Shown here: one piece after another, positions 3,401-64,000 of the stretch
How positions within the stretch are numbered: the stretch's first letter is position 1
How the letters are laid out: each line of letters starts with the position of its first letter
Assembly: GCF_026151205.1 (NCBI RefSeq)
Contig: NC_087079.1
Coordinates: 12,762,635-12,826,634 of the forward strand
Length of the DNA stretch: 64,000 nucleotides
From: Bolinopsis microptera
Lineage: Eukaryota; Ctenophora; Tentaculata; Lobata; Bolinopsidae
Direction: 5' to 3'
Translations under genes and position numbers: made by a program
Notes under the pieces: model-generated
Told to the model about the DNA's origin: nothing
Databases searched by the model: none
The model's input: the letters and a program-made list of their open reading frames with translations, nothing else

Positions 3401-3755
3401 CTTGAACTGTTTTTTGTTCGAGGACTAAACGCAAAATTAAACCTATCGTATTTTTTATTATTTTATTGTTTTGTTTATTAATCCAATATAACTTTGGCAA
3501 TTTTATGTTTTTCACAAGTCTGAAAGACCTTGTGCGTCAATCGATAAACAGCATATTGATATATTATGTTTCCATTTGATTAAAATGCCCTGAATACACG
3601 ATATACTATGTTACAAGCTTGATCAGTTTTTAGATTGTTTATCAGAACTGATTACTTTTCATTAATAAATGCTAATGACCTTTCAATCAGTTTAGCTATC
3701 GCGGGATCCTAGTTAATGCTCCAAAATAGGATTTGAAGAAACCTCACAGCTCAAA
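441..3755. other. No gene recognised
   Basis: AT-rich sequence with no convincing exon, RNA gene or repeat array on either strand. It could include upstream regulatory sequence or 5' UTR of the kinase gene that follows. No specific element can be supported. Confidence 0.5.
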
Positions 3756-43219: not shown

Positions 43220-44240
43220 CTCAGCTTCTTTGCCGATACCTACAATATTGATTCATGTAAATTTCAGAAAAAAATTAAAACAATTCTGGTTAAAATTGTA
43301 TCATATGAAGATAAAAGTGAATCGTAGAAAAGAATTCGCAATATCAGTAGACAGGAATCAGATAAATCAAAAATTAACAACGCTTTTGCAATCAATGTTC
43401 CTTATGGGCATTTTCTGCTCCGGATCCCGAGGGTCCAAAGGAAGTTTTGGAATTTCTCAACCTGTGTATATCTATAGAATTAAAAATACTATATTTTAAA
43501 CTTGACGAAATCCCCCTGGCAACGGGGACAAAACACTGAAAATCGACCTAAAATGACCCTCTGGTGTCAACAATTTCAGCTCGCAAATGGAGTTGAAACC
43601 TCGCCATTTTTAGCATAGCAGGGTTGTAAAAAAATGATAGGAATAGGCTATATTATATATATTATATAGCATTCTTAGAATTTTGATTAAGGCTTTAGCT
43701 TTTCTATAATTAACGTCAGAAGTGAGTTAAAATAAACGTTAGAATAATGTTGTTATTTTAGCAAAGGTAAATGGCGTCGACCGTTGCTTAGCAACATCAA
43801 GAAATTGCACGTGCGCGAGCAAGAACAGATTAGCAACACGAGTTGCCATGCTTTATGATACGTCATATAAACTTCGCAACTAGATCACAACTGACAACTA
43901 GCTCACATTTACGCTCACGCCATGACTATATAAATATTTATAAGTTTGGTTGTGATTCATATTTCTCGATGCGGTAGAGTAGAAAGTGTTTTTTAGGGAA
44001 TTTGAATATTTACAACTTTGTCGTCATTGTCAGATAAAATCCATGAGTTCTACAGTATAAGTATAACAGAGCTGTATGATAAAAATAAATTAAAACATAA
44101 TTACTGATTTTTAAAATTTCCTCGAACAAAGTTTTCGACTTGCGGGTTTCTAGTAAAGATATAATACATGCGGGAAAAATTATTTTCGAACTCTGAAAAA
44201 CAAGTGAGAAGATCAACGAAGCTATAACTCTATAAAAACA
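43220..44240. other. Upstream flank of the Cys-rich gene; no other gene seen
   Basis: AT-rich. May hold the promoter of the minus-strand gene. No defined element. Confidence 0.4.
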
Positions 44241-44249
44241 CGACACACA

Positions 44250-44585
44250 TCACCACTCACCAATCACGAGAAGAGCTAGCAGTGATTTAACTGTTTAGGG
44301 AACCAGTAACGAAATTTATGAAATAGCAGACCATCTAAATCTAATTGGTCTGCGAGAGCTCTAAACCAATTATTGTTTCCTTCAAAGCTTCAAGAAAACC
44401 TTGTTAGTTTGTTTATATTATACTTCATCGGTACTGGTATAGCAGCTAAAGACACGTCACCAATCACGATCAGAAGAGCTAGCAGTTATCTAGGGAACCG
44501 GAAACGAAAAATGAAATAGCAGACCATCTAATTGGTCTGTGAGAGCTCTAAACCAAATATTGGTTCCTGGTTAGTTTGTTTATAC
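44250..44585. repeat. Tandem duplication of about 200 bp
   Basis: CACCAATCACGA..AGAAGAGCTAGCAG, then AATAGCAGACCATCTAA and GAGAGCTCTAAACC, appear at 44256-44400 and again at 44459-44580. The AGACCATCTAAT..ATTGGTCT core can form a small hairpin. Confidence 0.75.
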
Positions 44586-45119
44586 TATGAAACAGACAGA
44601 GTATGAACTATAATGATCAAATTTCGTTTCCTCTTACGTTTGTGACCTTACGGTTGATGTACTCACGCCCCAGAAAATTTCTGAATATTTTCCAAAAATA
44701 AGCAATCTGAGCTTTTATGAGTGAATTACCTTTATACAGTTTATACTTTTATAGTGCTGCAACATAAACATGTGCATTGCGGTCATTTTAAGCTAAAGTT
44801 TTAGTCTCTAAGACCTTCAAAAGCTGAAATACAAATTTCTCATATACGATCCTGATATATATGAAATATGGGCGCGGCTCCACAGGGTTGGGACTACTAC
44901 TAGTGACAGTGACACAACATGCGACCCTCGGTGCAGTGATTTGAGTTACCAATGACCCTTATTTAATCATATTCATTATTCATTAGCAAAAAACTCTATA
45001 CATCGGTCATCGAAGTGCACACTCAACTCCTCCCTGCTACTACTACTAGCTGGAGTAAGATCAAAAGTGACTGTGAAGAGCTAAAGGCAGAGCTATTAAA
45101 AGTTTAGGATGATGATTAA

Positions 45120-45545
45120 TCACTCTACACTCGACTGTCACGTGACTTTTTCAACCCTTTCTCTAGCTGGTTCTGAACGACTTTTCGAAACCCTAACCCT
45201 CTAATCTGATCCCAACCCTAACCCTAACCCAATCCTTAACAAAAACATATGCTGAAACCCTAACCCTAACGCGAAATTAGACTAACTTCCTTATACGGTC
45301 ATATCACGTGATCGAGACAGTTTTTCGCCATGAATATCTCGTCAGGGGAGCATTTTAACCCTATGTCATGGGGGGTGATTCGGTTACAACCGTCGGGGGC
45401 CCTTTTAGAACAATCTCGAAGATCGACTGTAGAGTGATTTAGCACGCTCGAAAAGTTTAATTCAAAATATTACCCCAGGCTATTTTATTTTATATGCTCA
45501 TAATATCATAAAGATTCGGCGGAATGGCTGAGCACCGCCCAGTAA
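45120..45545 (-). repeat. Inverse copy of the telomere-motif repeat
   Basis: CCCTAACCC blocks at 45185-45270, then TCACGTGA, then CCCTATGTCATGGGGGGTGA: the inverse of 34797-35075. It is followed by the GGCGGAATGGCTGAGC module at 45515. Confidence 0.75.
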
Positions 45546-45649
45546 GATTGAACTGAAATATAAAACGCTCGGCTCTATAAATCTAAATGAGCAGGCAGCT
45601 GATCAACTTGATCTCACATGTGAGAATTCAGAATATGCATTCTCACAAT

Positions 45650-45760
45650 TAGGGACCGACCGGATATCCGGCTGAATCCGGATCCGGTCGGATATCCGGC
45701 TTCAATATCCGGTTCCGGCTCCGGCTCCGATTTCAAAAATTTTTGCCGGATATTTCTTTT
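45650..45760. mobile_element. CCGGATATCCGG-rich element end, possibly hAT-like
   Basis: Starts TAGGGACCGACCGGATATCC and continues with CCGGATATCCGG palindromes. A related stretch at 54217-54370 starts TAGGAACCGACCGGAATGGG. Shared TAGG-ACCGACCGGA termini plus palindromic subterminal repeats resemble hAT ends. The partner ends were not located. Confidence 0.45.
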
Positions 45761-48375
45761 TAAAAAATGTATTTCTAAAATCTTGAAATGCATATTTTTC
45801 GTCACATTTTAACTCAAATCCCTAAAAATCAAAACTTTTTTCACTACACTTAGAAAAACCGAAAAATATTTTTGGCTAATAATGAACAGAGTACCTACTA
45901 ATAGTAGGTAGTGCGCCATCGACATTGAGCCGCGCGTGCCGACTGTAGCCGTAGGATGGTTTTTTAGCGCTAATTTCGGCCAGCACAATTTTCTTCAATC
46001 AAATAGATATTAAGTATCCTTCCCGACCTCCAATTGCAACAAAAATTGGTAAGCTTACTTATAGACTTACAAGGAAAGTGTCCGAAAAATTTAAAGCATA
46101 TCCAACCATCAGACATTATGTTACAGCTAAAAGCAGCGTATTTTGCCCCATTTTGATCACTATATCAACTCCGATATCCACCAAATTTTTCGGACAGTTG
46201 TAAAAGCCCTATTGGAAGGTCGTCGCCAATTTCCAGAATGATCTCATTCAAGGAACTGAAGATAAATCCGAATAATACGACAAAAATGGTCAAATTTGGA
46301 CGAATTTGGTCAAATTACGCGACTTTTACAGCCACTTTTGGGATTTTACTAATTCACTCGCCAGCGCGCTATCACGTGTTTTTAATGCCGTGATTTCATT
46401 GGTCACCTCAATAACGCGCATTATTTGTGACAGCACAGTTGTTTTCACACAATTTGTCCACCGCGCGTGCAATAAACTCAATTTAAGCTCCGATTTGTGA
46501 CCGAAATGGCCGAATGGGCTATAATATGGTTTATGCAATGCATGGCCGGTAATTAGCTAATTGAATTTTAGGCACTGTAGGTTGCATAAATTCACGAATT
46601 ATCAATAATATGCAATAAAATTATTCCTGCAAGTTTTAATTCATTTAAGGTTTTATAGATCTTGTTGGTCAAGGGTAAAATATAAGCAGTATAATAAATC
46701 AATATCGAATTGTTTTCAGTTTTTCATCGCGAACAGATACCACTATTTCAAGTTGTTACACGGCCAAGGATAAATCTCACAATTGTTTAGATTTGTAGCT
46801 CTGTTTATCAACGGTGAGATTTCTGAAAAGGGCAATTGAAATTGAAATCGATTTGACTCTTAAACGTGCTTCAGCTCCAACTGTTAAATAGATCCACATT
46901 CTACATTCTACCAGATTCTTATCTACCTAGATTCTACCATAATATATAGTCGATATATTATATACGTATACCAGAGCACGTCACATTTCAATAATTTTAC
47001 AATATGTTATTTTATCAGCTACATATGTTCGAAGGATTAAAACACTTTTATGACGGTGCTGTTAGAATAACAGAATATTTACGCTATAAAACAGTTGACA
47101 TCAAGAATATTATAACATTACCAAACTAAGTAAAAAATAACAACTGTCCAATGTCCTAACCATGAACCTGACCAAAAATGTCAGTAAATATCAGTTTATT
47201 CGAAATCACAGTCATATCACTATGAAGACCCGTGTATTAGCCCGGTAGGTGAGGTATAATAGAGCCGGCCAGCCCGGTAGGTGAGGTCCAGTAGTTGCCC
47301 GGAGGCGGTGTAGATTTGGGTGATGAGGTCTCCTCCTGACACGTTGTACATTCCTTTGTGTGGTTCCTCCTTCTCTCCTTCCTCTTCTAGAATATCTGAG
47401 GGGGGAGGGTGATCACAGAGTAGGGAATGTATAATAAGGGATATTTTATAGTAGTGCTGTCACGTGACAAAAATGAGCTCTCGTTCGTTCATTACTTAGC
47501 CACGACCTGTCGACCGTTTTTGGAGAGGTTTATTAACTACTTCTATCTTACTCACTATAATTACTACAGTATTAGATCAGGGTCAGAGACGGGTTCAATA
47601 TTAGGATATATAAGCTACAGGAAAAGAAGATTAATTTTTATTAACGGCACTCTTCCCACAAACACCACGTACCGGGAAGAACAAGTCTAATTTTAGAGGT
47701 TGGTTTCCATCCAGCCACATCAGTGCTCTGAATAACAGCAGGACGTTGATGTTCCATGGTCTGGACTAGCGTACCACTTTTCCACCCTGGGGTGAAACAA
47801 GAGCTCCAGCTCGTACAAACTGCAGTCTTTACCAGTGGAAGACTTGAGGACTGAGGAGTTCTATCAGTTTCTCTATCAGAAGGATTAGGTCCTTGTAGGA
47901 GCTGGAGCTAGCAGGGAGGTCTCCGTACATGCCTGACCAATATGTTAGTTTGAGAAATACACAAACAATCATCAGTTTAACAAAACAATTATTACACCAA
48001 ACAATTATTAATAAAGTGAGGTTATAACTGTAAGCTTGTTACACCCCGCAATATCACTACCGTCCGGAACAATAATTGTTTTAAGTTATGATATTAAGTT
48101 TAACATAAGTTAATAGAATATTATTATATAAGTTACGATCGATTGTAACAAACCTGCAACATGACATTATTACAGGGAAGCCTCCGGGTGGAAAAACTCA
48201 GTACCATGGGGGGACTTCTGGCAACGTTCCAGGAACTTCTTAGTACGCTCTTCTCGAACCTTCTTCATGTGCCGCTGAATCACTTTATTAATAGTTTAAC
48301 TTTAGTCCAAGAATAGATTCGTAGAAAAATTAACCAGTAACTGCAGATTCCAATTAAACTAAAAAGTCATTGGTT

Positions 48376-48450
48376 ACTAGTTATTAGTTACTACTGTTAC
48401 TAGTTACTAGTTACTAGTTACTAGTTACTAGTTACTAGTTACTAGTTACT
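48376..48450. repeat. (TAGTTAC)n tract, copy 1
   Basis: About nine copies of a 7-bp unit. The inverse copy is at 60205-60270 in the other unit. Confidence 0.9.
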
Positions 48451-48843
48451 GATTGGAACCAGCTTCGTTTACTGGTTAATGTTTACCCAAGTATTCATAC
48501 ATACAATTATATAGAATAGTTATATACCTAAATCTGCTAATATAAAACCATAATAACTCTAAAAATATACATGTACACTGCGCAAAATTATGGACCTGGA
48601 AGTAAGACTAAATACTTCAGAGCTTAATACACAAATCAAAACAAAATTCTAGAAGACTGACAGTCTTGTGTTGAAAGACGAATGTGATTTAGAAGCTTAT
48701 CAAAAAATTAAAATCTTAGCGAGCCACGAATCCATAAATCCAAACAAAACTCTGTCTTGACACATTTCAAACAACAGTTTTGTCCACACTACACACTTTG
48801 CCTCCTTTAATGAAGTGTCTCTTATATCTCTCTCTTATATCTC

Positions 48844-49530
48844 TTATATATCTGGCTCGTCGTTTGATCTCTTCTTGAGTTCTAAAACAAGCTTTTGTTG
48901 TTCGGCACGTTCCTCTGGAGACCTATCCGGACTGATAAAGACTTTACCGAAATGCTCCGAGCTACGGAGATGCCTTGCTCTAGTCAAAATCTGCTGCACG
49001 ATTGTAGAGCTCGTCAAAGTCACCTTAACAGGTCTATCAGCCACCTGTTTCTTATCCTTGGATTTGATCAAACCAATTCTGCTAGCTTCTATTTTTGGCT
49101 TTTCACCAAGTTCCAACAACACTTGACCGACCTTGTCACATAACAGCTCACCTTTCTCTCCTTTAAGACCAAACAACATCAGATTCCGACTTCGGTCTCC
49201 TTCTGCTACAACATCCTTAATGACATTCTTCAAGATGTTTCTATCCGAATCCAGCAAAGGACCTGCTGTTGAGGTTTTTGATTCCTTTACCGCGGCGCTG
49301 TATGTCTTTAACTCGGATTTCACAGTATTCTCAACTGATGCTACAACCTCAGATTTCAAGTAATCAAGCTGCTCGTCTTTGACAGCTAGCAGCTCTTTCT
49401 GCAATACAACTATTGTCCCCTGGCTGTCAATTACATCGGAGTGCAATTTCTGGTTATACTTCTCCATCTGATCAATGTACAATGATTGCCTATACATAAT
49501 TTTTAACGCAGAATTGAGACTCTGAGCCAT
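48844..49530 (-). CDS. LINE ORF1-like protein, copy 1
   Basis: 228-residue protein, identical to the copy at 59128-59814. An N-terminal coiled coil (about residues 10-85, IDQMEKYNQKLHSDVIDSQG onward) is followed by SRNLMLFGLKGEKGE, the start of an RRM-like fold found in ORF1 proteins of animal non-LTR retrotransposons. Then come RPVKVTLTSSTIVQQILTRA, LRSSEHFGKVFISPDRSPEE and a basic tail. The family binds RNA of its own element. No endonuclease or reverse transcriptase frame follows, so this is an ORF1 without ORF2. Gene symbol not assigned. Confidence 0.85.
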   Translation of the reverse strand: MAQSLNSALKIMYRQSLYIDQMEKYNQKLHSDVIDSQGTIVVLQKELLAVKDEQLDYLKSEVVASVENTVKSELKTYSAAVKESKTSTAGPLLDSDRNILKNVIKDVVAEGDRSRNLMLFGLKGEKGELLCDKVGQVLLELGEKPKIEASRIGLIKSKDKKQVADRPVKVTLTSSTIVQQILTRARHLRSSEHFGKVFISPDRSPEERAEQQKLVLELKKRSNDEPDI

Positions 49531-49554
49531 GACTTCCCTAGTGATTTCTCTTCT

Positions 49555-49745
49555 ACCAATGAAACCCTGAGCTACAGTCTACACACGCGTTAACATGATT
49601 TGATTTAACAAGCCCGAGAGTTTTCCGGATCCATTCAGCTCCATCATCCCTCACTTCATCAAGCTTATAAGCCACGTATTTCTCAGATTTATACATCACA
49701 CAACCACGGCACCGGTTAAACAAGCAAGTCTTATCAACGTAATGA
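49555..49745 (-). pseudogene. Cys/His zinc-finger-like segment upstream of ORF1, copy 1
   Basis: Minus strand reads CLFNRCRGC ... HVNACVDCSSGFHW then a stop, a PHD-like spacing seen in the first part of many LINE ORF1 proteins. The stop separates it from the ORF1 frame, so it is either a broken N-terminus or a short separate frame. Confidence 0.55.
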
Positions 49746-50577
49746 TAAGTAACTGATAAGCGAGCAACAACGTATTGAAAAGCGTATTTACTGAACTGAA
49801 AAGTGTATTTACTGAACTGTTACTAGTTACTAGTTACTATAGTAGAACAATCAGTAAGCTTATCTACTACCTGTTATAACACTGGGTATCACTATAGCAG
49901 ATGTAATGAAGATCACGGTAGGCTCAAAACGAAATTGACTCTTATATCAGTAATACATAGTAACAAACCTGCCATTATTACTGTCCGGAGTCCCGGACAG
50001 GAGGATCCAATGAAATTACCTCAGCAACCAGTTGAAAAGCCAGGAAATTGACCAGAAAATCAATAACATGATACAACAATCCTGAGTAGAGTTGAGAACC
50101 TAAGGTTTTTAGGTCTTGATGTCATTCTGAATCCTCTCAGTCAAAGCCAAATAGTGGAAAGCAATAATATATAATGGTGGTAATTGGTACCCTCGAGATT
50201 AGCGCTGATCAAGAATGCCAACAGGGAGTAACAAAGAAGAATAAACCGAACATCCCAGTTGAATTTCTACTGCAAATTAACTTGAACACACGTCTGTAGG
50301 GTACCACGTGACACGCAATCTGGCCAATAAGCTATCGAATAGCAGTCACGCTGCCCAATCAGAGGGCTGGCTGTTAGTCGGGTGCGGACCACTTATGCCA
50401 GTCTAGCTGACGCCAAACAATTATAACACTGAGTACACTCAAATTCATAATTTCCAAATGTGGAGCTCTAAAAGAACAAATAGGAGCCTTGGTTCCTACA
50501 CCCGAATCTATGTATTACACATAAAAAAGCTTAAACCAAGATTATCTTAGAGATATATCTCCAAATACCATTTAACA

Positions 50578-50931
50578 GGGAGGGAGGGAGGGAGGGAGGG
50601 AGGGAGGGAGGGAGGGAGGTAGGGAGGGAGGGAGGGAGGGAGGGAGGGAGGGAGGGAGGGAGGGAGGGAGGGAGGGAGGGAGGGAGGGAGGGAGGGAGGG
50701 AGGGAGGGAGGGAGGGAGGGAGGGAGGGAGGGAGGGAGGGAGGGAGGGAGGGAGGGAGGGAGGGAGGGAGGGAGGGAGGGAGGGAGGGAGGGAGGGAGGG
50801 AGGGAGGGAGGGAGGGAGGGAGGGAGGGAGGGAGGGAGAGAGGGAGGGAGGGAGGGAGGGAGGGAGGGAGGGAGGGAGGGAGGGAGGGAGGGAGGGAGGG
50901 AGGGAGGGAGGGAGGGAGGGAGGGAGGGAGG
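50578..50931. repeat. (AGGG)n microsatellite, copy 1
   Basis: About 354 bp of GGGA with single interruptions (GGTA, GAGA). The long Pro-Ser-Leu open frames on the minus strand are composition artefacts. G-quadruplex potential is high on this strand. Confidence 0.97.
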
Positions 50932-51477
50932 AGTTGGTCGCATAATGACAGTAGAAATGATTGCAATGATTCTAAACTTTTCAATAGTTTTAAGGTTCAA
51001 AATTAAACATTAACGTGCGAGGTTGCGGTAATTTCTTTAATTATGTTTTCTAGTCAGGTTTACAACTCGGTGTTACATTGGTTTTCGTCCTGGTCGACAA
51101 TGCAAAATACAAAACAGTAAACAGTGCCACATAGAAAAGTACTAAAATCATACATTTTTCTTGGATGCATGTAGCTCTCATGACATTGAAACCATAAAAA
51201 AAGCTTACGAGAAGGGTATCACTTTAAGGCAAATGACAGATGACAGAGATATTCAACAAACTGCAAGCGATAGGTTTATCAGAAGGCATAATGCAGAGAG
51301 CGAGTGAAAAAGAGGAAGGAACAAAAGTTTGTATCTGATCTCAATCACACGCCAGCGCGCTATATCACGCGCACGTGACTTAAACACTGCAATATCATTG
51401 GTCATCTTTATATCCAATGCGAAATACAAAATAGCGCGCTTTTCCTATAATCCATGGCGAGTGAATTAGTGAAACCG

Positions 51478-52144
51478 GTCAAATTGAGTCCGAATAAAGA
51501 TTTGGCGGAATGACAGGCCGGCTGAGCGCCACCCATGCAGTAACCCTATTGGAAGATCTTCGCAAATTTTCAGAATGATCTCGTTCAACTTCAAGAAACC
51601 AAAGATATGAAAAAATAATACGACAAAAATCAATAAATTACGCCGCACAAAATTACGCGATTTTTAGTTTTACACCTACTTTTGCTCCAAAAGCCGCGCA
51701 CCATCAAATATGGCACTTAGGCGAAACTCACTGATCATTCCAAAAAAGTATGTCAAATTTGGTACTGTGAAATGTCTCACAGTCTTTAGAAAACAATGGT
51801 ACATGTACAAATATTTTGAAAATCCGCAAGAATGCCGCGCGAACTAGCATTCTTGTTTCAGCTTCGCATCGATCGTCGCAACGATCTTAGCTTCGCAACG
51901 CGAACGATCTTCGCAACGATCTCGATTGGTTGACATCGTCAATCAAGTTTATTTTTATCGTGCACTGACCCCCTACTATAGTCTAGTTATAGGCCCTTAC
52001 TTTATGTGCAAATAAGAAGAATTAGAAAAAGAAAAATGTGACTGCCGCTTGTTGGCCATCAAACCGAATCTTTTTTACATTTCTTAAATCGTAAACTTTT
52101 AAATAAATTACTTATATTTCACTTATATTTCATTTATATTTCAG
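51478..52144. other. Spacer start: dispersed repeats
   Basis: Contains the GGCGGAATGACAGG module, a diverged inverse copy of the 36150/57060 module, and CGATCGTCGCAACGATC-type palindromic repeats at 51860-51930. No gene. Confidence 0.6.
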
Positions 52145-52307
52145 TGCTGAGGCAAAGCTAAGGAATAAGCTGGCGTCGCTAAAAAGAGTAGCGGAACGTT
52201 CCCTCGACAAAATTAAGAGGAACAATTATAAGAAATCAAGGGACAATCTCGAAGGAAGAGAGTTTATTTTGAAATCATTGAGCAGTGATTCAGAGTATGA
52301 GGTGTAA
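52145..52307 (+). CDS. Orphan terminal exon, basic protein tail
   Basis: A strong acceptor (TATATTTCAG) opens a frame for 53 residues: AEAKLRNKLASLKRVAERSL, then DKIKRNNYKKSRDNL and SLSSDSEYEV before TAA. The composition is protein-like and coiled-coil compatible. It needs a phase-2 upstream exon, and none was found in the 670 bp back to the mobile unit, which may have separated it from the rest of its gene. Function unknown. Confidence 0.5.
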
Positions 52308-52372
52308 CGTCAGAGGTTTTGATGTGACGTCATAAATTTTGATGTGACGTCACAGGTTTTGATATAACGTTT
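52306..52372 (+). promoter_or_regulatory. Tandem CRE-like TGACGTCA repeats
   Basis: Three to four copies of a 22-bp unit TTTTGATGTGACGTCA directly after the stop of the orphan exon. TGACGTCA is the ATF/CREB consensus. It could equally be a chance microrepeat. Confidence 0.4.
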
Positions 52373-53059
52373 AGATAAATTATGTGCTTTTCCAATTCCA
52401 TAATCCATGCCCACATTTTCCTTATATGGATTTAAATTATTTCCTTAACAGATGCTTGCATATATTGCTTAAATAAATAGCTTAAATAGGCTTAAATTAC
52501 TTATCATCTGTTAGTGAAAGTAATTAACAGGTGGTGATATATTATACTCGTTTATAGGCCAGCTGCGATTAACAATCAGCTTGCAGTATCGACCATTAAA
52601 AACGAAATTTGCGTCTTCACGTGTCGATGAAAATAGCTTCCTCGCTCATATCATGGTAGCCGAATCTATTGAATCATAATTTGTGAGTTAAATAAATAAA
52701 ACGATTGTGAACTTTACAAATTTTGTAATCAGATGAATCGAGTCCGAAACAGCATGAAGAAATTAAATTAAATATGATATGATTCACGTTTTTTACGGCG
52801 TGGTAATATTCGTTTATTGATCTCTATTTGAAATATCTATTAACTGTTAATTGTTAATAATATAATGCTTTTTATCTTTCACTGATTACGCGATAAAAAT
52901 TTAAGTCCATTGTTGCCACCTGAAAGGTTGGTCATATTTAAGCTTACGATTGTGTAAAAATTTGAATTATTAATTTTTAATGTAACTCTGTAATTTTAGT
53001 TTAATTTTAAGCTAACAAAGATTATCGGTTTCAGGTTCATAATTATTCTTTTCATTAAA

Positions 53060-53275
53060 TTGATTTATACGAATATTGATAACAGCAAATATTTTGACAT
53101 ACGTTGCATGCCACTTTTCGCCGAAGCATGTATCAACAAATATCTGCATCGTGATGAAATGAATCCAGCAAGAGATCATTCACAGCAATTACATAAGCGT
53201 TATTTTTATGAATATGAACCACTAGACTGCTTACGAAATATGTTAAACTCTTACCAACCACGAGATCATGATTAA
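53060..53275 (+). CDS. Short open frame, unknown
   Basis: A frame of 71 codons preceded 27 bp upstream by an acceptor-like GGTTTCAG. Reads IYTNIDNSKYFDIRCMPLF, then YFYEYEPLDCLRNML. Composition is plausible for protein; no family recognised, no partner exon found. Confidence 0.25.
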   Translation: MIYTNIDNSKYFDIRCMPLFAEACINKYLHRDEMNPARDHSQQLHKRYFYEYEPLDCLRNMLNSYQPRDHD

Positions 53276-53689
53276 CAAGGAAATACTATAATTATATTAT
53301 AATATGAGTCCGATTTCAGAAGTCTATAATTATAATATTATTATTGGTACTGTTAGCAGCAGCTCTGCGCGCGCTCGCTGGTGGCAATTTCAAATTTTTA
53401 TGTTTGATATCTTTAATTTGATACACGTGAGTTTTATTTGTCTTCAATACTACTACATAATATATACTAGTGCTACATATTATTATATTAGAAAATAATT
53501 TGAGATTCCTACTCCTGCTACTATAAAACAAGTGCTGTGCGACACTCAATTGTCATAGGATGATGAGAGTTGCTTTTTGAAAAAATCCCTAATTAACAAT
53601 TCTAATCTTAATATAATTATAAAGCAATAGTACGTGCTAAAATATCAAATAACGGAGTAGTTCGCTGTTTATTAGTCTCATGATTGAAA

Positions 53690-53963
53690 TACTGATATCT
53701 GGATATTATCCGGTTGGAAGAGACAAGGACAAGTGAAACAAGGAAGTTAGGAGTAAGGGCAAATTTTCGGCGTCAACGCCATCTTCAGGCTCAAATTATT
53801 TGTTATATAGTAGTGTTGAAAGTATTAATACTTTCAACACTACTATATAACAAATAATTTGAGCCTGAAGATGGCGTTGACGCCGAAAATTTGCCCTTAC
53901 TCCTAACTTCCTTGTTTCACTTGTCCTTGTCTCTTCCAACCGGATAATATCCAGATATCAGTA
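53690..53963. mobile_element. Perfect 274-bp palindrome (MITE-like foldback)
   Basis: Two 137-bp arms match base for base around a centre at 53826/53827. The ends TACTGATATCTGG/CCAGATATCAGTA fit a TA target site. AGTACGTGCTAAAA occurs on both sides (53629-53642 and 53960-53973), which could instead mark a longer target duplication around a 317-bp insertion. No coding sequence. Confidence 0.85.
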
Positions 53964-54216
53964 CGTGCTAAAACATTGATAAATTCTTGAAAACTTGCCC
54001 TCAGGACTTCGTTGAAGTCGCGAAGTTCAACAAAAATAAATTATAACGTTGCCAACTCACAACTATAATAATTTTATACTAGAAAAACCGCGTCCCACGC
54101 GCTGGGGATGATTTAGGAAATTCAATATCCTAGATCGCGAACAGATGCAAATGGAATTTATTTCATTATTTATCATTTCCAATTATCACTATCAGGATCG
54201 GTTGCATTGCATTGTG

Positions 54217-54370
54217 AGTAGGAACCGACCGGAATGGGCTTTTGGCTGCCGGACCGGATTTTGCCGGATATCTATTATCCGGTTAGCCGGATTTTGCCGG
54301 ACCGGAACCGGTTGTTAGGAAGGGCAAATAATTATAAGGTTGCCGGAACGTGCCGGATCTTGCCGGAAAA
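54217..54370. mobile_element. TTGCCGGA-rich element, possibly hAT-like
   Basis: Starts TAGGAACCGACCGGAATGGG and repeats TTGCCGGA and CCGGTT motifs in both orientations; related to 45650-45760. Confidence 0.45.
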
Positions 54371-54580
54371 TTTAAATTAATCCTTATTATTGGGCTTTTA
54401 CCATTATCAATTATGATATTAATCTTTATATGCCATAGTTTGTAATTACACAATAAGTGTAAGCTTATACGAACAGGCCGATGATGTTTACAGTTACTGT
54501 TTAGGCCTAGCAGTATAATACATCTAGGTCAAATATCAAATCAACAAGCAGAACGTTGGAACAAGCCTAGACAAGTTATT

Positions 54581-54646
54581 ATCAGAAATGATATGCAATT
54601 GGCATATCCTACCATCAGAAATGATATGCAATTGGCATATCCTACC
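54581..54646. repeat. 33-bp unit, two tandem copies
   Basis: ATCAGAAATGATATGCAATT plus GGCATATCCTACC, twice, without mismatch. Confidence 0.95.
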
Positions 54647-54787
54647 ATGATACTCCTGCTTATAATTACGTAAAACGTATGATGAACTAATTTTAATAAA
54701 TTTTTTGAACATTTTCACTTTCAATATTTTGGACTAGTACAATTTTCGACATTTTTAAAGAATAGCCACTATTTACCACTTTTTTAC

Positions 54788-55063
54788 TGCATTTAATCTC
54801 CGCTAATAAAATGACTTCTGATCTAAATGTCGTAGAAGGTTCTAGATTTGATTGGGTAAACAATGATTACCTAATCGCTAATCACGTGACAGGGTGCTAG
54901 GATACCGTAATTGGGCTTTCTGCACATTGAATCTCCGCTAATAAAACGACTTCTGAATCTGAATGTCGTGGAAGGTTCTAGATTTGATTGGGTATTCATT
55001 GATTACCTAATCGCTAATTGCTAATCATGTGACAGGGTGCTAGGATACCGTAATTGGGCTTTC
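54788..55063. repeat. Tandem duplication of about 133-143 bp
   Basis: Two copies (54788-54920 and 54921-55063) sharing ATCTCCGCTAATAAAA, GGAAGGTTCTAGATTTGATT and ACAGGGTGCTAGGATACCGT; the second has an 8-base extra CTAATTGC-type duplication. Confidence 0.9.
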
Positions 55064-55800
55064 TGCACGATTCCCATAGTGGGGATCTAGTGCCAACCCA
55101 ATCACCTGATTCAACGTAATGCAACTTGTGGCATCAAAATTCGGTTTGGACGTTTGGAGGGAGTAAAATTACATTATAAATAAATGTGCAAAATCTAAAA
55201 ATGAAGTTCGGACGAATACTGTATTCCCTGTAATTGTATAACAGTCCGCTCTGAAGAATACATATATCCCTGAACAATCGCATATTATCCTCGATAACTC
55301 ACTTTGGGAGTTTGTGCTAGGGTAAAGATAGGTTACTTTTAATTCTTCGTAGCTTTGCGTCCATCGTTATGAATATGATCGTACGATTTTTTATTGAATA
55401 AAGTTTACTTTTATTATAATTGGAGGGATTTCGATATATCGATTGGGCGCAACTGTCGTATCTGATCAAGCAGTTTTTTAATTAGTGTAGGAAGGGGGGG
55501 GGGGGACAGGGGGGACAGGGGCCCTGCGGTTTCTTTGCGTTCGCGACTATACCCATTTGTGATTCCACTGTGTAGACGTAGGTATGACAAATCATATATC
55601 TTCGTAAAGTACATCCTCTGACTAGGAAATCACAAGTTTAATCAGTTCTGGAGACTGTTCCTGGACAGAGTTAAGACGGTTTAAAACTTCCGCGCCGCGC
55701 AATAGCCCCAAAATGGCTAAAAATATACATCGTCATAGAATAACTTTGCGTAGGGAATGCGCGAGCACGACAATATGATAGTTAACATTGATTTTCGGCC

Positions 55801-55875
55801 GCCGGCACGATAGCATAGTTGGCTAAGAGGGCGATTGACCGTGCTAGCTGATGGTTCGAATCCCGGTCTGACCTT
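55801..55875 (+). ncRNA. tRNA-like Pol III promoter unit (SINE head or degenerate tRNA)
   Basis: Box A TAGCATAGTTGG (55811-55822) and box B GGTTCGAATCC (55853-55863) both fit the Pol III consensus at tRNA spacing. The acceptor and T stems pair poorly, so this is more likely the head of a tRNA-derived SINE than a working tRNA. No SINE tail or target duplication was identified. Confidence 0.55.
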
Positions 55876-56999
55876 TAATTTAGTTTGAACTGAAACAAGT
55901 TGTTTACTATTTTCATCAAAAAGCTTCTCTAGTGTTAGGTTAATATTGATTAGTTAATCATATTACAAGTTGTACTATAGGATGAAATGTATAATTAGAA
56001 ATGGGAAAGCAGCTATACGCAAAGCGTCGTTATGCTACAATGTTATAGTAATAACATTGTTTGTCTCAGATTATTTTTAATACAAGAAGCGACCAGCATC
56101 GCATCTTCATCGATTAGTTCGGAGTCGTCGCTGTATTCAGCTATAACATTGATTTTTAATTGATACTTTAGCAGATATGAGCAGCTTTAATCAGTCTGAT
56201 TTGGTAGGTTTTGGGCTGGGCACAGTTTGCTAAGGATTCTGTTTCTATCTGTTGTAAAACTTGATGGTCTGCTGTGAAAAAAACATTTTGAAGGCAGAAA
56301 GCTCTGGATTGGTCTTTTAAATGCCTTTCTCAACGACAATCCCTCGTTAGCAGTTACTTATATTAAAACTTTTTGTTCGGACTATTGACATGTAGTGTCT
56401 GGAGAAGGAGGGCAACAAAGGAGCACTTCTCAGTTGTACAGTGGCCGGCATTTCTAGACGCTGCTATCCATTACCTTCTACATCTGAAACAGATTTTAAT
56501 ATAAGCAACTAATTAATAATACGGGTGAGACTTAAGTTTCAGTAAAATTAAATCTGACACTTGTGTGCAGTAACAAGAGAAAATCCAGTGCATCCATCGC
56601 CCCCCATAAAATCTGGGCAAGGGACCAAAAAGGGCCAACTTTTTTATTTAGGGTTCTATTTCTAAAAATGTTTGGGACAAAATTGTTAACTATGTTTTCG
56701 GAGTTTTTATGAAAACCACTTTTCTCCACATTTCATGCTACCCTGTTCATTATTAGCCGAAAATATTTTTTAATTGGCTTTTCAAAGTCCGCACCCACCC
56801 CTCGATACACAATTTTGGACTCGAGGCTTCCCCTGGTAATACGATCTCGGAAGGCTGGCCTTCGGCCCTTTGCAACACGAGCTCGGAAACGGGAGCTCTC
56901 GATACGAGAGGTACGTATCGAGAATGACTTGGACCGAAAATTAGTACAAATTTTTTCAGTTTTTCTGAAAAGCACTTTTCTCCACGTTTCATGCTACTA

Positions 57000-57175
57000 G
57001 TAGGGGGTGCACGATAAAAATAAACTTGCTCGGATTCTAAAAATTTTTGTACCACTGTTTTCTAGAGACTGTGAGAATTTTCACAATACCAAATTTGTCA
57101 TACCTTTTTGGAAAGATCAGTGAGTTTCGCCTAGGTGCCATATTTGATGGTGCGCGGCTTTTGGAGCAAAAGTAG
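57000..57175 (+). repeat. Dispersed module next to the right unit
   Basis: Contains CTAGAGACTGTGAGAATTTT to CAGTGAGTTTCGCC (copy of 36150-36235) and GATGGTGCGCGGCTTTTGGA, whose inverse is at 51690-51710. So the two big units are flanked on the inside by related but diverged repeat sequence. Confidence 0.75.
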
Positions 57176-57719
57176 CGGTTTCACTAATTCACTCGCCATG
57201 GATTATAGGAAAAGCGCGCTATTTTGTATTTCGCATTGGATATAAAGATGACCAATGATATTGCAGTGTTTAAGTCACGTGCGCGTGATATAGCGCGCTG
57301 GCGTGTGATTGAGATCAGATACAAACTTTTGTTCCTTCCTCTTTTTCACTCGCTCTCTGCATTATGCCTTCTGATAAACCTATCGCTTGCAGTTTGTTGA
57401 ATATCTCTGTCATCTGTCATTTGCCTTAAAGTGATACCCTTCTCGTAAGCTTTTTTTATGGTTTCAATGTCATGAGAGCTACATGCATCCAAGAAAAATG
57501 TATGATTTTAGTACTTTTCTATGTGGCACTGTTTACTGTTTTGTATTTTGCATTGTCGACCAGGACGAAAACCAATGTAACACCGAGTTGTAAACCTGAC
57601 TAGAAAACATAATTAAAGAAATTACCGCAACCTCGCACGTTAATGTTTAATTTTGAACCTTAAAACTATTGAAAAGTTTAGAATCATTGCAATCATTTCT
57701 ACTGTCATTATGCGACCAA

Positions 57720-58081
57720 CTCCCTCCCTCCCTCCCTCCCTCCCTCCCTCCCTCCCTCCCTCCCTCCCTCCCTCCCTCCCTCCCTCCCTCCCTCCCTCCC
57801 TCCCTCCCTCTCTCCCTCCCTCCCTCCCTCCCTCCCTCCCTCCCTCCCTCCCTCCCTCCCTCCCTCCCTCCCTCCCTCCCTCCCTCCCTCCCTCCCTCCC
57901 TCCCTCCCTCCCTCCCTCCCTCCCTCCCTCCCTCCCTCCCTCCCTCCCTCCCTCCCTCCCTCCCTCCCTCCCTCCCTCCCTCCCTCCCTCCCTCCCTCCC
58001 TCCCTCCCTCCCTCCCTCCCTCCCTCCCTCCCTCCCTACCTCCCTCCCTCCCTCCCTCCCTCCCTCCCTCCCTCCCTCCCT
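57720..58081. repeat. (CCCT)n microsatellite, copy 2
   Basis: Inverse of the 50.6-kb tract, a few bases longer, with the same kinds of interruption (CTCT, CTAC). Open frames reading Pro-Ser-Leu are artefacts. Confidence 0.97.
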
Positions 58082-58926
58082 GTTAAATGGTATTTGGAGA
58101 TATATCTCTAAGATAATCTTGGTTTAAGCTTTTTTATGTGTAATACATAGATTCGGGTGTAGGAACCAAGGCTCCTATTTGTTCTTTTAGAGCTCCACAT
58201 TTGGAAATTATGAATTTGAGTGTACTCAGTGTTATAATTGTTTGGCGTCAGCTAGACTGGCATAAGTGGTCCGCACCCGACTAACAGCCAGCCCTCTGAT
58301 TGGGCAGCGTGACTGCTATTCGATAGCTTATTGGCCAGATTGCGTGTCACGTGGTACCCTACAGACGTGTGTTCAAGTTAATTTGCAGTAGAAATTCAAC
58401 TGGGATGTTCGGTTTATTCTTCTTTGTTACTCCCTGTTGGCATTCTTGATCAGCGCTAATCTCGAGGGTACCAATTACCACCATTATATATTATTGCTTT
58501 CCACTATTTGGCTTTGACTGAGAGGATTCAGAATGACATCAAGACCTAAAAACCTTAGGTTCTCAACTCTACTCAGGATTGTTGTATCATGTTATTGATT
58601 TTCTGGTCAATTTCCTGGCTTTTCAACTGGTTGCTGAGGTAATTTCATTGGATCCTCCTGTCCGGGACTCCGGACAGTAATAATGGCAGGTTTGTTACTA
58701 TGTATTACTGATATAAGAGTCAATTTCGTTTTGAGCCTACCGTGATCTTCATTACATCTGCTATAGTGATACCCAGTGTTATAACAGGTAGTAGATAAGC
58801 TTACTGATTGTTCTACTATAGTAACTAGTAACTAGTAACAGTTCAGTAAATACACTTTTCAGTTCAGTAAATACGCTTTTCAATACGTTGTTGCTCGCTT
58901 ATCAGTTACTTATCATTACGTTGATA

Positions 58927-59103
58927 AGACTTGCTTGTTTAACCGGTGCCGTGGTTGTGTGATGTATAAATCTGAGAAATACGTGGCTTATAAGCTTGAT
59001 GAAGTGAGGGATGATGGAGCTGAATGGATCCGGAAAACTCTCGGGCTTGTTAAATCAAATCATGTTAACGCGTGTGTAGACTGTAGCTCAGGGTTTCATT
59101 GGT
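58927..59103 (+). pseudogene. Cys/His zinc-finger-like segment upstream of ORF1, copy 2
   Basis: Same segment as at 49555-49745: CLFNRCRGC ... NACVDCSSGFHW ending in TAG, 27 bp before the ORF1 start codon. Confidence 0.55.
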
Positions 59104-59127
59104 AGAAGAGAAATCACTAGGGAAGTC

Positions 59128-59814
59128 ATGGCTCAGAGTCTCAATTCTGCGTTAAAAATTATGTATAGGCAATCATTGTACATTGATCAGATGGAGAAGT
59201 ATAACCAGAAATTGCACTCCGATGTAATTGACAGCCAGGGGACAATAGTTGTATTGCAGAAAGAGCTGCTAGCTGTCAAAGACGAGCAGCTTGATTACTT
59301 GAAATCTGAGGTTGTAGCATCAGTTGAGAATACTGTGAAATCCGAGTTAAAGACATACAGCGCCGCGGTAAAGGAATCAAAAACCTCAACAGCAGGTCCT
59401 TTGCTGGATTCGGATAGAAACATCTTGAAGAATGTCATTAAGGATGTTGTAGCAGAAGGAGACCGAAGTCGGAATCTGATGTTGTTTGGTCTTAAAGGAG
59501 AGAAAGGTGAGCTGTTATGTGACAAGGTCGGTCAAGTGTTGTTGGAACTTGGTGAAAAGCCAAAAATAGAAGCTAGCAGAATTGGTTTGATCAAATCCAA
59601 GGATAAGAAACAGGTGGCTGATAGACCTGTTAAGGTGACTTTGACGAGCTCTACAATCGTGCAGCAGATTTTGACTAGAGCAAGGCATCTCCGTAGCTCG
59701 GAGCATTTCGGTAAAGTCTTTATCAGTCCGGATAGGTCTCCAGAGGAACGTGCCGAACAACAAAAGCTTGTTTTAGAACTCAAGAAGAGATCAAACGACG
59801 AGCCAGATATATAA
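59128..59814 (+). CDS. LINE ORF1-like protein, copy 2
   Basis: Identical 228-residue frame to the minus-strand copy at 48844-49530: coiled coil, then the RRM-like DRSRNLMLFGLKGEKGE region, then FISPDRSPEERAEQQK and a basic tail. The first ATG (GTCATGG context) is used because it follows a stop and matches the coiled-coil start. No ORF2 downstream. Confidence 0.85.
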   Translation: MAQSLNSALKIMYRQSLYIDQMEKYNQKLHSDVIDSQGTIVVLQKELLAVKDEQLDYLKSEVVASVENTVKSELKTYSAAVKESKTSTAGPLLDSDRNILKNVIKDVVAEGDRSRNLMLFGLKGEKGELLCDKVGQVLLELGEKPKIEASRIGLIKSKDKKQVADRPVKVTLTSSTIVQQILTRARHLRSSEHFGKVFISPDRSPEERAEQQKLVLELKKRSNDEPDI

Positions 59815-60379
59815 GAGATATAAGAGAGAGATATAAGAGACACTTCATTAAAGGAGGCAAAGTGTGTAGTGTGGACAAAACTGTTGTTTGAAATGTGTCA
59901 AGACAGAGTTTTGTTTGGATTTATGGATTCGTGGCTCGCTAAGATTTTAATTTTTTGATAAGCTTCTAAATCACATTCGTCTTTCAACACAAGACTGTCA
60001 GTCTTCTAGAATTTTGTTTTGATTTGTGTATTAAGCTCTGAAGTATTTAGTCTTACTTCCAGGTCCATAATTTTGCGCAGTGTACATGTATATTTTTAGA
60101 GTTATTATGGTTTTATATTAGCAGATTTAGGTATATAACTATTCTATATAATTGTATGTATGAATACTTGGGTAAACATTAACCAGTAAACGAAGCTGGT
60201 TCCAATCAGTAACTAGTAACTAGTAACTAGTAACTAGTAACTAGTAACTAGTAACTAGTAACAGTAGTAACTAATAACTAGTAACCAATGACTTTTTAGT
60301 TTAATTGGAATCTGCAGTTACTGGTTAATTTTTCTACGAATCTATTCTTGGACTAAAGTTAAACTATTAATAAAGTGAT

Positions 60380-60490
60380 TCAGCGGCACATGAAGAAGGT
60401 TCGAGAAGAGCGTACTAAGAAGTTCCTGGAACGTTGCCAGAAGTCCCCCCATGGTACTGAGTTTTTCCACCCGGAGGCTTCCCTGTAATA
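60380..60490 (+). pseudogene. Exon-like host fragment 1 in right unit
   Basis: Reads RHMKKVREERTKKFLERCQK then SPHGTEFFHPEASL and a stop. Well-formed protein sequence without LINE character; the family is not recognised. The identical inverse copy is at about 48165-48275. Confidence 0.5.
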
Positions 60491-60721
60491 ATGTCATGTT
60501 GCAGGTTTGTTACAATCGATCGTAACTTATATAATAATATTCTATTAACTTATGTTAAACTTAATATCATAACTTAAAACAATTATTGTTCCGGACGGTA
60601 GTGATATTGCGGGGTGTAACAAGCTTACAGTTATAACCTCACTTTATTAATAATTGTTTGGTGTAATAATTGTTTTGTTAAACTGATGATTGTTTGTGTA
60701 TTTCTCAAACTAACATATTGG

Positions 60722-60995
60722 TCAGGCATGTACGGAGACCTCCCTGCTAGCTCCAGCTCCTACAAGGACCTAATCCTTCTGATAGAGAAACTGATAGAAC
60801 TCCTCAGTCCTCAAGTCTTCCACTGGTAAAGACTGCAGTTTGTACGAGCTGGAGCTCTTGTTTCACCCCAGGGTGGAAAAGTGGTACGCTAGTCCAGACC
60901 ATGGAACATCAACGTCCTGCTGTTATTCAGAGCACTGATGTGGCTGGATGGAAACCAACCTCTAAAATTAGACTTGTTCTTCCCGGTACGTGGTG
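60722..60995 (+). pseudogene. Exon-like host fragments 2 and 3 in right unit
   Basis: After an acceptor-like TTGGTCAG: MYGDLPASSSSYKDLILLIE and KLIELLSPQVFHW then a stop. In another frame comes LYELELLFHPRVEKWYA, and in a third PWNINVLLLFRALMWLDGNQ then PLKLDLFFP, ending at a GTACGT donor. The changes of frame without introns suggest a captured and decaying gene piece. Inverse copy at about 47665-47937. Confidence 0.5.
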
Positions 60996-61260
60996 TTTGT
61001 GGGAAGAGTGCCGTTAATAAAAATTAATCTTCTTTTCCTGTAGCTTATATATCCTAATATTGAACCCGTCTCTGACCCTGATCTAATACTGTAGTAATTA
61101 TAGTGAGTAAGATAGAAGTAGTTAATAAACCTCTCCAAAAACGGTCGACAGGTCGTGGCTAAGTAATGAACGAACGAGAGCTCATTTTTGTCACGTGACA
61201 GCACTACTATAAAATATCCCTTATTATACATTCCCTACTCTGTGATCACCCTCCCCCCTC

Positions 61261-61440
61261 AGATATTCTAGAAGAGGAAGGAGAGAAGGAGGAACCACAC
61301 AAAGGAATGTACAACGTGTCAGGAGGAGACCTCATCACCCAACTCTACACCGCCTCCGGGCAACTACTGGACCTCACCTACCGGGCTGGCCGGCTCTATT
61401 ATACCTCACCTACCGGGCTAATACACGGGTCTTCATAGTG
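61261..61440 (+). pseudogene. Exon-like host fragment 4 in right unit
   Basis: Acceptor CCCCCCTCAG followed by ILEEEGEKEEPHKGMYNVSG, then GDLITQLYTASGQLLDLTYR and AGRLYYTS before a stop. A 16-bp CCTCACCTACCGGGCT is duplicated near the end. The inverse copy is at 47218-47397. Likely the next exon of the same captured gene as fragments 2-3. Confidence 0.5.
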
Positions 61441-62320
61441 ATATGACTGTGATTTCGAATAAACTGATATTTACTGACATTTTTGGTCAGGTTCATGGTT
61501 AGGACATTGGACAGTTGTTATTTTTTACTTAGTTTGGTAATGTTATAATATTCTTGATGTCAACTGTTTTATAGCGTAAATATTCTGTTATTCTAACAGC
61601 ACCGTCATAAAAGTGTTTTAATCCTTCGAACATATGTAGCTGATAAAATAACATATTGTAAAATTATTGAAATGTGACGTGCTCTGGTATACGTATATAA
61701 TATATCGACTATATATTATGGTAGAATCTAGGTAGATAAGAATCTGGTAGAATGTAGAATGTGGATCTATTTAACAGTTGGAGCTGAAGCACGTTTAAGA
61801 GTCAAATCGATTTCAATTTCAATTGCCCTTTTCAGAAATCTCACCGTTGATAAACAGAGCTACAAATCTAAACAATTGTGAGATTTATCCTTGGCCGTGT
61901 AACAACTTGAAATAGTGGTATCTGTTCGCGATGAAAAACTGAAAACAATTCGATATTGATTTATTATACTGCTTATATTTTACCCTTGACCAACAAGATC
62001 TATAAAACCTTAAATGAATTAAAACTTGCAGGAATAATTTTATTGCATATTATTGATAATTCGTGAATTTATGCAACCTACAGTGCCTAAAATTCAATTA
62101 GCTAATTACCGGCCATGCATTGCATAAACCATATTATAGCCCATTCGGCCATTTCGGTCACAAATCGGAGCTTAAATTGAGTTTATTGCACGCGCGGTGG
62201 ACAAATTGTGTGAAAACAACTGTGCTGTCACAAATAATGCGCGTTATTGAGGTGACCAATGAAATCACGGCATTAAAAACACGTGATAGCGCGCTGGCGA
62301 GTGAATTAGTAAAATCCCAA

Positions 62321-62440
62321 TTTGACCATTGTTAATGATCTGGCCCGGCGCGCGCTACTTCGTAGCTCGAGAAGAAAGCGGCGTGCGCTACTTCGAAGAA
62401 ATTTAGACGAGTAACATCCGTCAAGGACTCAATGAATTAC
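62321..62440 (+). repeat. Copy of the GCGCGCTACTTCG element
   Basis: GACCATTGTTAATGATCTGG, GCGCGCTACTTCGTAGC and AAATTTAGACGAGTAACATC match 11281-11535. It starts exactly where the right unit ends, so the unit may have inserted into an older repeat. Confidence 0.7.
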
Positions 62441-63640
62441 GACCTCAATCGCCCTGAAAAAAGTGCGAATGCTCATTGCATTGGATGTTAAAGCGCACGT
62501 GACTAGCATTCACGTGATCATTCAGAACCAATTAAAGCCGTGCAAAATCTGAATCCTTCGCAGCTCGATAAGGCCCTGTAATTTCGCCACTTCGGGCGCG
62601 CTTGTAGTTGTTTCACAATAGTAGAGGCTCTTACGGGCATTGTCTGCTCGATACGTTAGGGACCCCAGATACACCTTACTAGACGTATTTTTGACCGTAG
62701 AATCGATTGAAAGTGGTTTCAAGATGATTGGACTGATTGTGTTGGGGTAAAATCGCAAAAAACCGATTTTTGGGCCAAAAATAGGCCAAAAAACCATGTT
62801 TTTTGATATTTTGAGCAAGTTAATTTTGTTGGCATGTCGGCAAAACTTGCATAAAGATAGCTAAAAGACAGCCGCACAAGATTGTATAAAAATAAAACAA
62901 ATCCCTCTATTTGTTCTGAGGTAAAAATCCAAAAAAGTGGTAAAAATTTTGACTTTTTTGCTTGAAGTTTGAATAATTTTTTGCAGTTGTATTAAATCAA
63001 CCCAAAAATAGTCACATCGTGTTTGCCTAAATTTTTCCTTTCCGAGAAGTACCCACTTCATATACTTTATCGAAGTTTGAATATTGTCACTCCGCAAGCG
63101 TTTTTGCCAAATTTTCGACGCGCACTACGCGCAAAAGCATTTAGTTGTTATCAATTGGCACCCGCGCGTTCATCATAAATTTCAAACAGCTATAACTCAG
63201 CGAGATTATGTCCGTTCTAGCTCATATTTTCATACTAAATAGAAAATAATGTGATCTTATTGCTGACAAAATATGAATATAATTACTCTATTTGCCTTAG
63301 AGTAATAGACTGTCAAAGTTTAAAACGCGCATTGGTATAGCACGTGACTAATAAGTCCAAATTTATACTTCTTAACATATTATCGATCCTTAGACATCAT
63401 ACTATTGTGTCCAATTAGCGGTTAGGTCTCTAAACTCGTAGCAGAAAACACGTCTTTTTGCCCGTAAGAGCCTCTACTACAAGTCAAGAAAAGCCTTCTT
63501 ACCGCCGTGAGGCGGGCGCGCGCTACTGCAAGCGCAAGGGCTCTTGATAGAGCAAGCCCTGTAATGCATTTTGCCGATCTACAGCTCATGTAGCTGCGAT
63601 ATTTTATAAACATTATTGGATGCGCGGTGCGGCCCAGTAG
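62441..63640. other. Repeat-derived sequence, no gene
   Basis: CG-rich modules (AAAGTGCGAATGCTCATTG, CATTCACGTGATCATTCAGA) are inverse to 35680-35760. An inverted copy of the GCTCTATCCAGAGCCC-type module lies at 63515-63560. No coding region is supported. Confidence 0.55.
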
Positions 63641-63878
63641 TAGTGCATTGCTTCACATAGCCATGTGTCTACGCGTACTGCGTGACGCGCTTGTTTCACT
63701 GCAAGCGAGAGGGCTATGGTTAGTGGTTAGAGCAAGTGCATTGCGCTAAAAATGTGTCATGGCTATTTGAAAGCGCAATGCATTATTGGGCCGCGCAGCG
63801 CATCAAATAATGAATAATGTTTCTCACAACCATATTTGTTAGATCGATGCACCACAGGGCCATACCTTGTCCATTGTT

Positions 63879-63999
63879 GTCATACGTTGTATGACCCGCC
63901 GCGCACGAAGTGCGCGGCTCCCCCTGTAGCGTCGAAGACGCTACATAGTGAAACGACCGTGGGGGTCGCAACGTGATACAAGTCCATTGTTAATGGACT
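63879..63999. repeat. Run of perfect short hairpins
   Basis: Five palindromes follow each other: GTCATAC-GTT-GTATGAC (63879-63895), GCCGCGCAC-GAA-GTGCGCGGC (63898-63918), TGTAGCGTC-GAA-GACGCTACA (63925-63945), CGACC-GTGGG-GGTCG (63954-63968) and AGTCCATT-GTT-AATGGACT (63981-63999). Loops are mostly 3 bases (GAA or GTT). The array continues to the window edge. Confidence 0.9.
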
Positions 64000-64000
64000 A

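Follow-up and report, generated by a model that had tools for sequence, protein, structure and literature searches.

Within a stretch of 64,000 nucleotides from the genome of the ctenophore Bolinopsis microptera (C8:12762635-12826634, called the window in the following), two near-identical transposon copies, A and B, flank an interval of 5.7 kb in opposite orientation. In the assembly the interval lies inverted relative to its state at insertion, as is evident from the target-site duplications (TSDs), which are exchanged between the two copies, and from a host repeat that is split between the outer flank of A and the inner flank of B. On balance, recombination between the two inverted copies, following a local hop of the transposon, would probably account for the inversion.

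Exchanged target-site duplications and a split host repeat

An inverted-repeat search yielded two pairs of arms, 46338-50931/57727-62320 (4594 nt) and 50930-51477/57176-57723 (548 nt), which were scored as 100% complementary; the length and the identity of the arms are far above chance. The limits of A and B were placed by their TSDs (Table 1). The original prediction of two near-identical 5.14-kb units in inverse orientation, about 5.7 kb apart, was borne out. The end-to-end alignment that it had proposed also supported its suggestion of a very recent origin or gene conversion, in that A and B were very recently identical or have been homogenised. In the global alignment substitutions were found at 47315 (T/G) and 50839 (A/G), together with indels of 4 and 1 bp. 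The substitution at 50839 is located inside a GGGA microsatellite array and the indels in or at it, leaving 47315 as the only substitution elsewhere in the units (differences at 51478 and 51480 fall outside them). At 47315 copy A carries the same base as 12/12 relatives checked (L012 is not among them), and therefore the change is private to B.

Both copies have inverted ends, GGATTTT-ACTAATTCACTCGCCA on the left and CGGTTTC-ACTAATTCACTCGCCA on the right, so that the left end reads GGATTTTACTAATTCACTCGCC and the right end CGGTTTCACTAATTCACTCGCC. The ends had earlier been described as inverse copies around CACTAATTCACTCGCC; the shared core ACTAATTCACTCGCCA was recovered, while the leading C was present at the right ends only. 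Terminal inverted repeats (TIRs) of this kind, within two mismatches, also bound both ends of L009, L010, L015, L019 and L052. Judged from their sequence, A and B are two copies of the same non-autonomous TIR transposon, the TSDs of which comprise 9 bp.

The 9 bp next to the two ends of one and the same copy do not correspond, with 3/9 identical positions for A and 4/9 for B. The cross pairs match, A-left and B-right at 8/9 and A-right and B-left at 9/9 positions, and the chance of both cross matches is about 4e-10 if equal base frequencies are assumed. Two recent insertions of one large non-autonomous transposon had been proposed before. That the units are transposon copies was confirmed, while the exchanged TSDs and the split host repeat revealed that two simple insertions as now placed are ruled out, because the own-end TSDs disagree. 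That the entire 16 kb had moved as a single larger transposon was rejected as well, because the outer flanks, CCACTTTTG on the left and CAATTTGAC on the right (read on the + strand), disagree.

Genome-wide searches were performed over 265 Mb in 232 contigs. With unit A as the query, 83 matching pieces were obtained (best 40 of 497 candidates scored), which were distributed over nine other contigs (C1-C6, C9-C11) when matches to the nested repeat only were left out. Exact matches to the TIR core number 113 in the genome, against 0 for a reversed control pattern. For the analysis of TSDs single-ended copies were left out, and also L018, the ends of which are not an inverted pair. A perfect 9-bp TSD (9/9) was present at the own ends of 6/6 other both-ended loci found by script (L009, TGTTGGTGC; L010, GCCACGCGC; L015, AAATTTGTA; L019, GAAGCAAGA; L052, ATTATCAGC; L066, TACGCGTCC), and two further TSDs were read from the flanks of L049/L050 (GTTTACAAC) and L036/L037 (GTTACCATG). 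L066 and L036/L037 carry a related subtype of the right end. In total, 8/10 other end pairs have a perfect own-end TSD of 9 bp. Other genomic copies with different flanks, for which the original prediction had suggested a search, thus exist.

The left flank of A turned out to be part of an abundant repeat of about 600 bp (best 40 of 1514 first-look candidates scored). It is called MITE-like here (MITE, miniature inverted-repeat transposable element), because it has the ends TAGG...CCTA and a 7-bp TSD. Copies that had been picked by their match to A-left alone continued straight into B-right in 5/5 cases. With a joined query of A-left and B-right, 40/40 scored copies (best of 1277 candidates) crossed the junction at 97-98%; as they were ranked against the joined query, they are partly selected for crossing it. 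A control query of A-left and A-right was matched by 38 other copies only from position 1 to 150-156 of 300; its ranking would favour copies running on into A-right. The repeat's own 7-bp TSD was perfect (7/7) in 5/5 intact copies, and the 7-mers beside the two halves in the window agree at 6/7 positions. Because of this agreement, the two halves are most simply parts of one repeat copy, and an origin from two different copies is unlikely. Together with its TSD, the split repeat provides a third line of evidence.

Table 1. Positions in the window of the two transposon copies, their TSDs and associated features
Feature	Position	Strand	Remarks
Host repeat, left half	45905..46340	+	MITE-like; begins TAGGTAGTGCGCC; flanking 7-mer CTAATAG at 45898-45904
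TSD1, outer	46332..46340	+	CCACTTTTG; left end of A
Transposon copy A	46341..51477	+	5137 bp; ends GGATTTTACTAATTCACTCGCC ... GGCGAGTGAATTAGTGAAACCG
Extra-block point	48081..48086	+	unit position 1744-1749; L009 (C2), L010 (C1) and L011 (C10) carry 2.9-4.1 kb more
Nested 1.37-kb repeat in A	48450..49819	-	unit position 2113-3482; many other genomic copies
228-amino-acid frame in nested repeat of A	48844-49530		only sub-threshold coiled-coil matches
GGGA microsatellite array in A	50577..50931	+	with the array in B, all A/B differences but one
TSD2, inner	51478..51486	+	GTCAAATTG; right end of A
Inverted interval	51478..57175		5698 bp (spacer between A and B); reversed relative to the state at insertion
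Host repeat, right half	57001..57175	-	ends GTGCACCCCCTA; flanking 7-mer CTAGTAG at 56994-57000, read on -
TSD1, inner	57167..57175	-	CTACTTTTG read on -; right end of B; 8/9 to A-left
Transposon copy B	57176..62317	-	5142 bp; near-identical to A, opposite orientation
GGGA microsatellite array in B	57720-58081		
Nested 1.37-kb repeat in B	~58839-60208		coordinates by subtraction
TSD2, outer	62318..62326	-	GTCAAATTG read on -; left end of B; 9/9 to A-right

Origin of the inverted interval

The assembly places one copy in the MITE-like repeat, at the site marked by TSD1; the other, inversely oriented, stands 5.7 kb from it at TSD2. A local hop followed by recombination is the explanation that we favour, because long, close and near-identical inverted repeats are generally known to recombine readily. 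First, a copy would have made a local hop between the two sites. Homologous exchange between the 5.1-kb inverted copies would then have flipped the interval and swapped the TSDs, and crossover or gene conversion could have kept A and B near-identical. The inverted state may be polymorphic and flip repeatedly.

Several observations weigh against this course of events. TSD1 contains one mismatch, and so does the 7-bp TSD of the split host repeat. The difference between A and B outside the array is a single one and private to B, too few for chimerism, which is published as the proof of recombination, to be recognised, and the present order is known here from the assembly alone. A joined query for site 2 gave no uninterrupted copy among the best 40 of 2305 candidates: the window halves matched one-sidedly, and matches starting in B-left reached no further than position 155 of 291. 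A 29-base pattern spanning the joined site 2 had 0 matches even when up to 3 mismatches were allowed, and the evidence for site 2 is therefore its 9/9 TSD. In addition, the two end pairs L034/L035 (locus L053) and L029/L030 were judged by eye to be without a 9-bp TSD, and their ends deviate.

The order in the assembly might itself be at fault, and an assembly artefact had been considered in the original prediction too. If two ordinary local insertions had occurred in inverse orientation and the middle 5.7 kb had been placed backwards, the chromosome would not be inverted, and the TSDs would look exchanged because the assembler had flipped the middle. Near-identical arms in a structure of 16 kb are a classic place for mis-orientation. 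Moreover, a search with the interval yielded one full-length copy, itself, and no second haplotype among the best 40 of 4281 candidates. A flip by the assembler is unlikely, albeit far from negligible.

One event instead of two would suffice if two ends from different sister chromatids or homologues, the 5′ end of the transposon and the 3′ end of its counterpart, had entered site 2 together. Such a hybrid-element insertion, which we regard as about as unlikely as an assembly flip, would invert the interval, add the second copy and exchange the TSDs at once. According to PMC2775673, it gives identical copies and is otherwise strikingly similar in outcome to ectopic recombination. The nested insertion is indeed common to A and B, the 2.9-4.1 kb block is missing from both, and outside the array they are set apart by a single substitution, private to B. 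However, identical copies would equally be expected after a recent local hop with recombination or gene conversion, and therefore identity does not decide between the two; furthermore, no transposase has been tied to the transposon family. If true, hybrid-element insertion would represent a natural one-step inversion in an animal, caught before the copies diverged.

An inverted duplication of a larger segment, which had been offered as an alternative before, would fit two 5.1-kb units that are so alike and inversely oriented, but it is practically ruled out by the junctions: A and B are identical no further than the transposon termini and differ in their flanks, the two halves of each TSD pair are found one per junction, and copies elsewhere have such ends with 9-bp TSDs too.

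In a structure as young as this, reads and population data can still separate ectopic recombination from hybrid-element insertion and from assembly error. The concordance of TSDs is a cheap check of the orientation of an assembly around inverted repeats.

Anatomy of the transposon family and neighbouring sequences

The nested repeat of 1.37 kb in A and B is missing at that unit position in L009-L011. Its frame of 228 amino acids is the lone frame of more than 200 amino acids in A or B (unspliced frames, introns ignored). No Pfam family was found for it at E <=0.01, so that among these frames A and B hold no transposase gene, and by eye it resembles ORF1 of long interspersed nuclear elements (LINEs). 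The extra blocks of L009-L011 are missing from both A and B and are rich in GGA-type repeats, as judged from low-complexity reading frames. The GGGA array of the unit, of about 355 bp, stands elsewhere than these blocks, and the transposon family seems to gather purine-rich satellites. None of the other matches to unit A covers the whole unit (best 40 of 497 candidates); because of this and of the features that they share, A and B are mutual nearest relatives in hand.

At L018 (C9:15553199-15560024) the right end of the family adjoins a sequence of the MITE-like repeat type that resembles site 1 and is one base off (TACTTTTGCTCC), which suggests that such sites are a preferred target or that the two loci share a history. 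The left end in the same locus adjoins a GGGA tract, indicating that the locus is rearranged or nested. In the window, a stretch of about 0.4 kb at 34735-35101 has related TIR cores in opposite directions at its two ends (ACTAAATCGCTTGCC / ACTAATTCGCTCGCC), with no 9-bp TSD by eye; the TIR family may thus have MITE-sized members in the same window.

A clear transposase was not found in the frames of 24 loci, of the extra blocks of L009-L011 and of L066, with TIR-bounded stretches of 10-20 kb lying outside this search. A Pfam analysis of six frames also yielded no clear transposase, and L066 has no frame of at least 80 amino acids. One frame of 301 amino acids (L020:150-1052, - strand) is located in C4:2706946-2716892, a stretch bounded by two TIR cores, and matches DUF4371 (E 0.0022) and a zinc finger (E 0.0045), both below the cut-offs. 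DUF4371 is a domain of hAT-type transposases, and the match hints at a protein of this type. A transposase remnant is possible, either the family's own or that of a nested element, and the latter is more likely, because the 9-bp TSD is unlike the 8 bp of hAT elements. In the TIR-bounded L052 element a LINE-type endonuclease was detected (L052:761-1912; PF14529, E 6.2e-11), which is perhaps captured retroelement sequence; by eye, similar frames occur in or beside L017 and L018. The frames of L052 and L016 are LINE-like, with PF14529 and with a 2OG-Fe(II) oxygenase domain (PF13532) beside frames that look reverse-transcriptase-like by eye.

Beside B, at 62608-63200, the window contains a repeat of at least 585 bp, for which 39 other matches have 99-100% identity and one 96% (best 40 of 2220 candidates); it is a very young and abundant family. 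Rfam gave no match at the gathering score in window 44000-64000. Further away, a rhodopsin-family receptor frame at 22086-23036 (- strand; Pfam 7tm_1, E 9.4e-18) and a protein kinase exon at 5148-5627 (+ strand; Pkinase, E 8.4e-30) are likely host genes.

Comparison with known systems

The TSDs of Mutator-like elements (MULEs) comprise 8-11 bp, usually 9, and the family of A and B falls within this range. A 9-bp TSD together with G-rich termini would fit either a Mutator-like or a Merlin-like element; the Merlin superfamily has an IS1595/IS1016-type transposase. The hAT superfamily makes TSDs of 8 bp, whereas 9 bp were found in 8/10 end pairs. A text search of the literature for the TIR core gave no match, which says little, because sequences rarely stand in text.

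Alternative or hybrid-element transposition of Ac/Ds in maize and rice, which are hAT elements with 8-bp TSDs, could give a one-step inversion with duplicated element ends. For Ac/Ds an active transposase is known, while no clear transposase was found for the family of A and B in the frames searched.

Among the closest known systems are the Galileo inversions 2j, 2q7 and 2z3 of Drosophila buzzatii (PMC2775673). There, exchanged TSDs on copies in opposite orientation are described as the mark of an inversion mediated by a transposable element; ectopic recombination gives chimeric copies, and hybrid-element insertion, which starts from one site, identical ones (PMC2775673). As for A and B, one TIR transposon stands in opposite orientation and with exchanged TSDs at both breakpoints of 2z3, and the target is present once in non-inverted chromosomes (PMC2775673). 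The corresponding observation here is that at site 1 the outer and the inner flank are contiguous in uninterrupted copies of the target (5/5, and 40/40 scored). Galileo belongs to the P superfamily and has relatively long TIRs, 7-bp TSDs, polymorphic chromosomal inversions and chimeric copies. In contrast, A and B have a 9-bp TSD, a short shared TIR core, an interval of 5.7 kb and near-identical sequences. The kind of event is thus already known, and the pair A and B adds a further animal instance that is resolved to the base, in which the exchanged TSDs and the split host repeat give a base-precise view of how a pair of transposons can turn an interval round.

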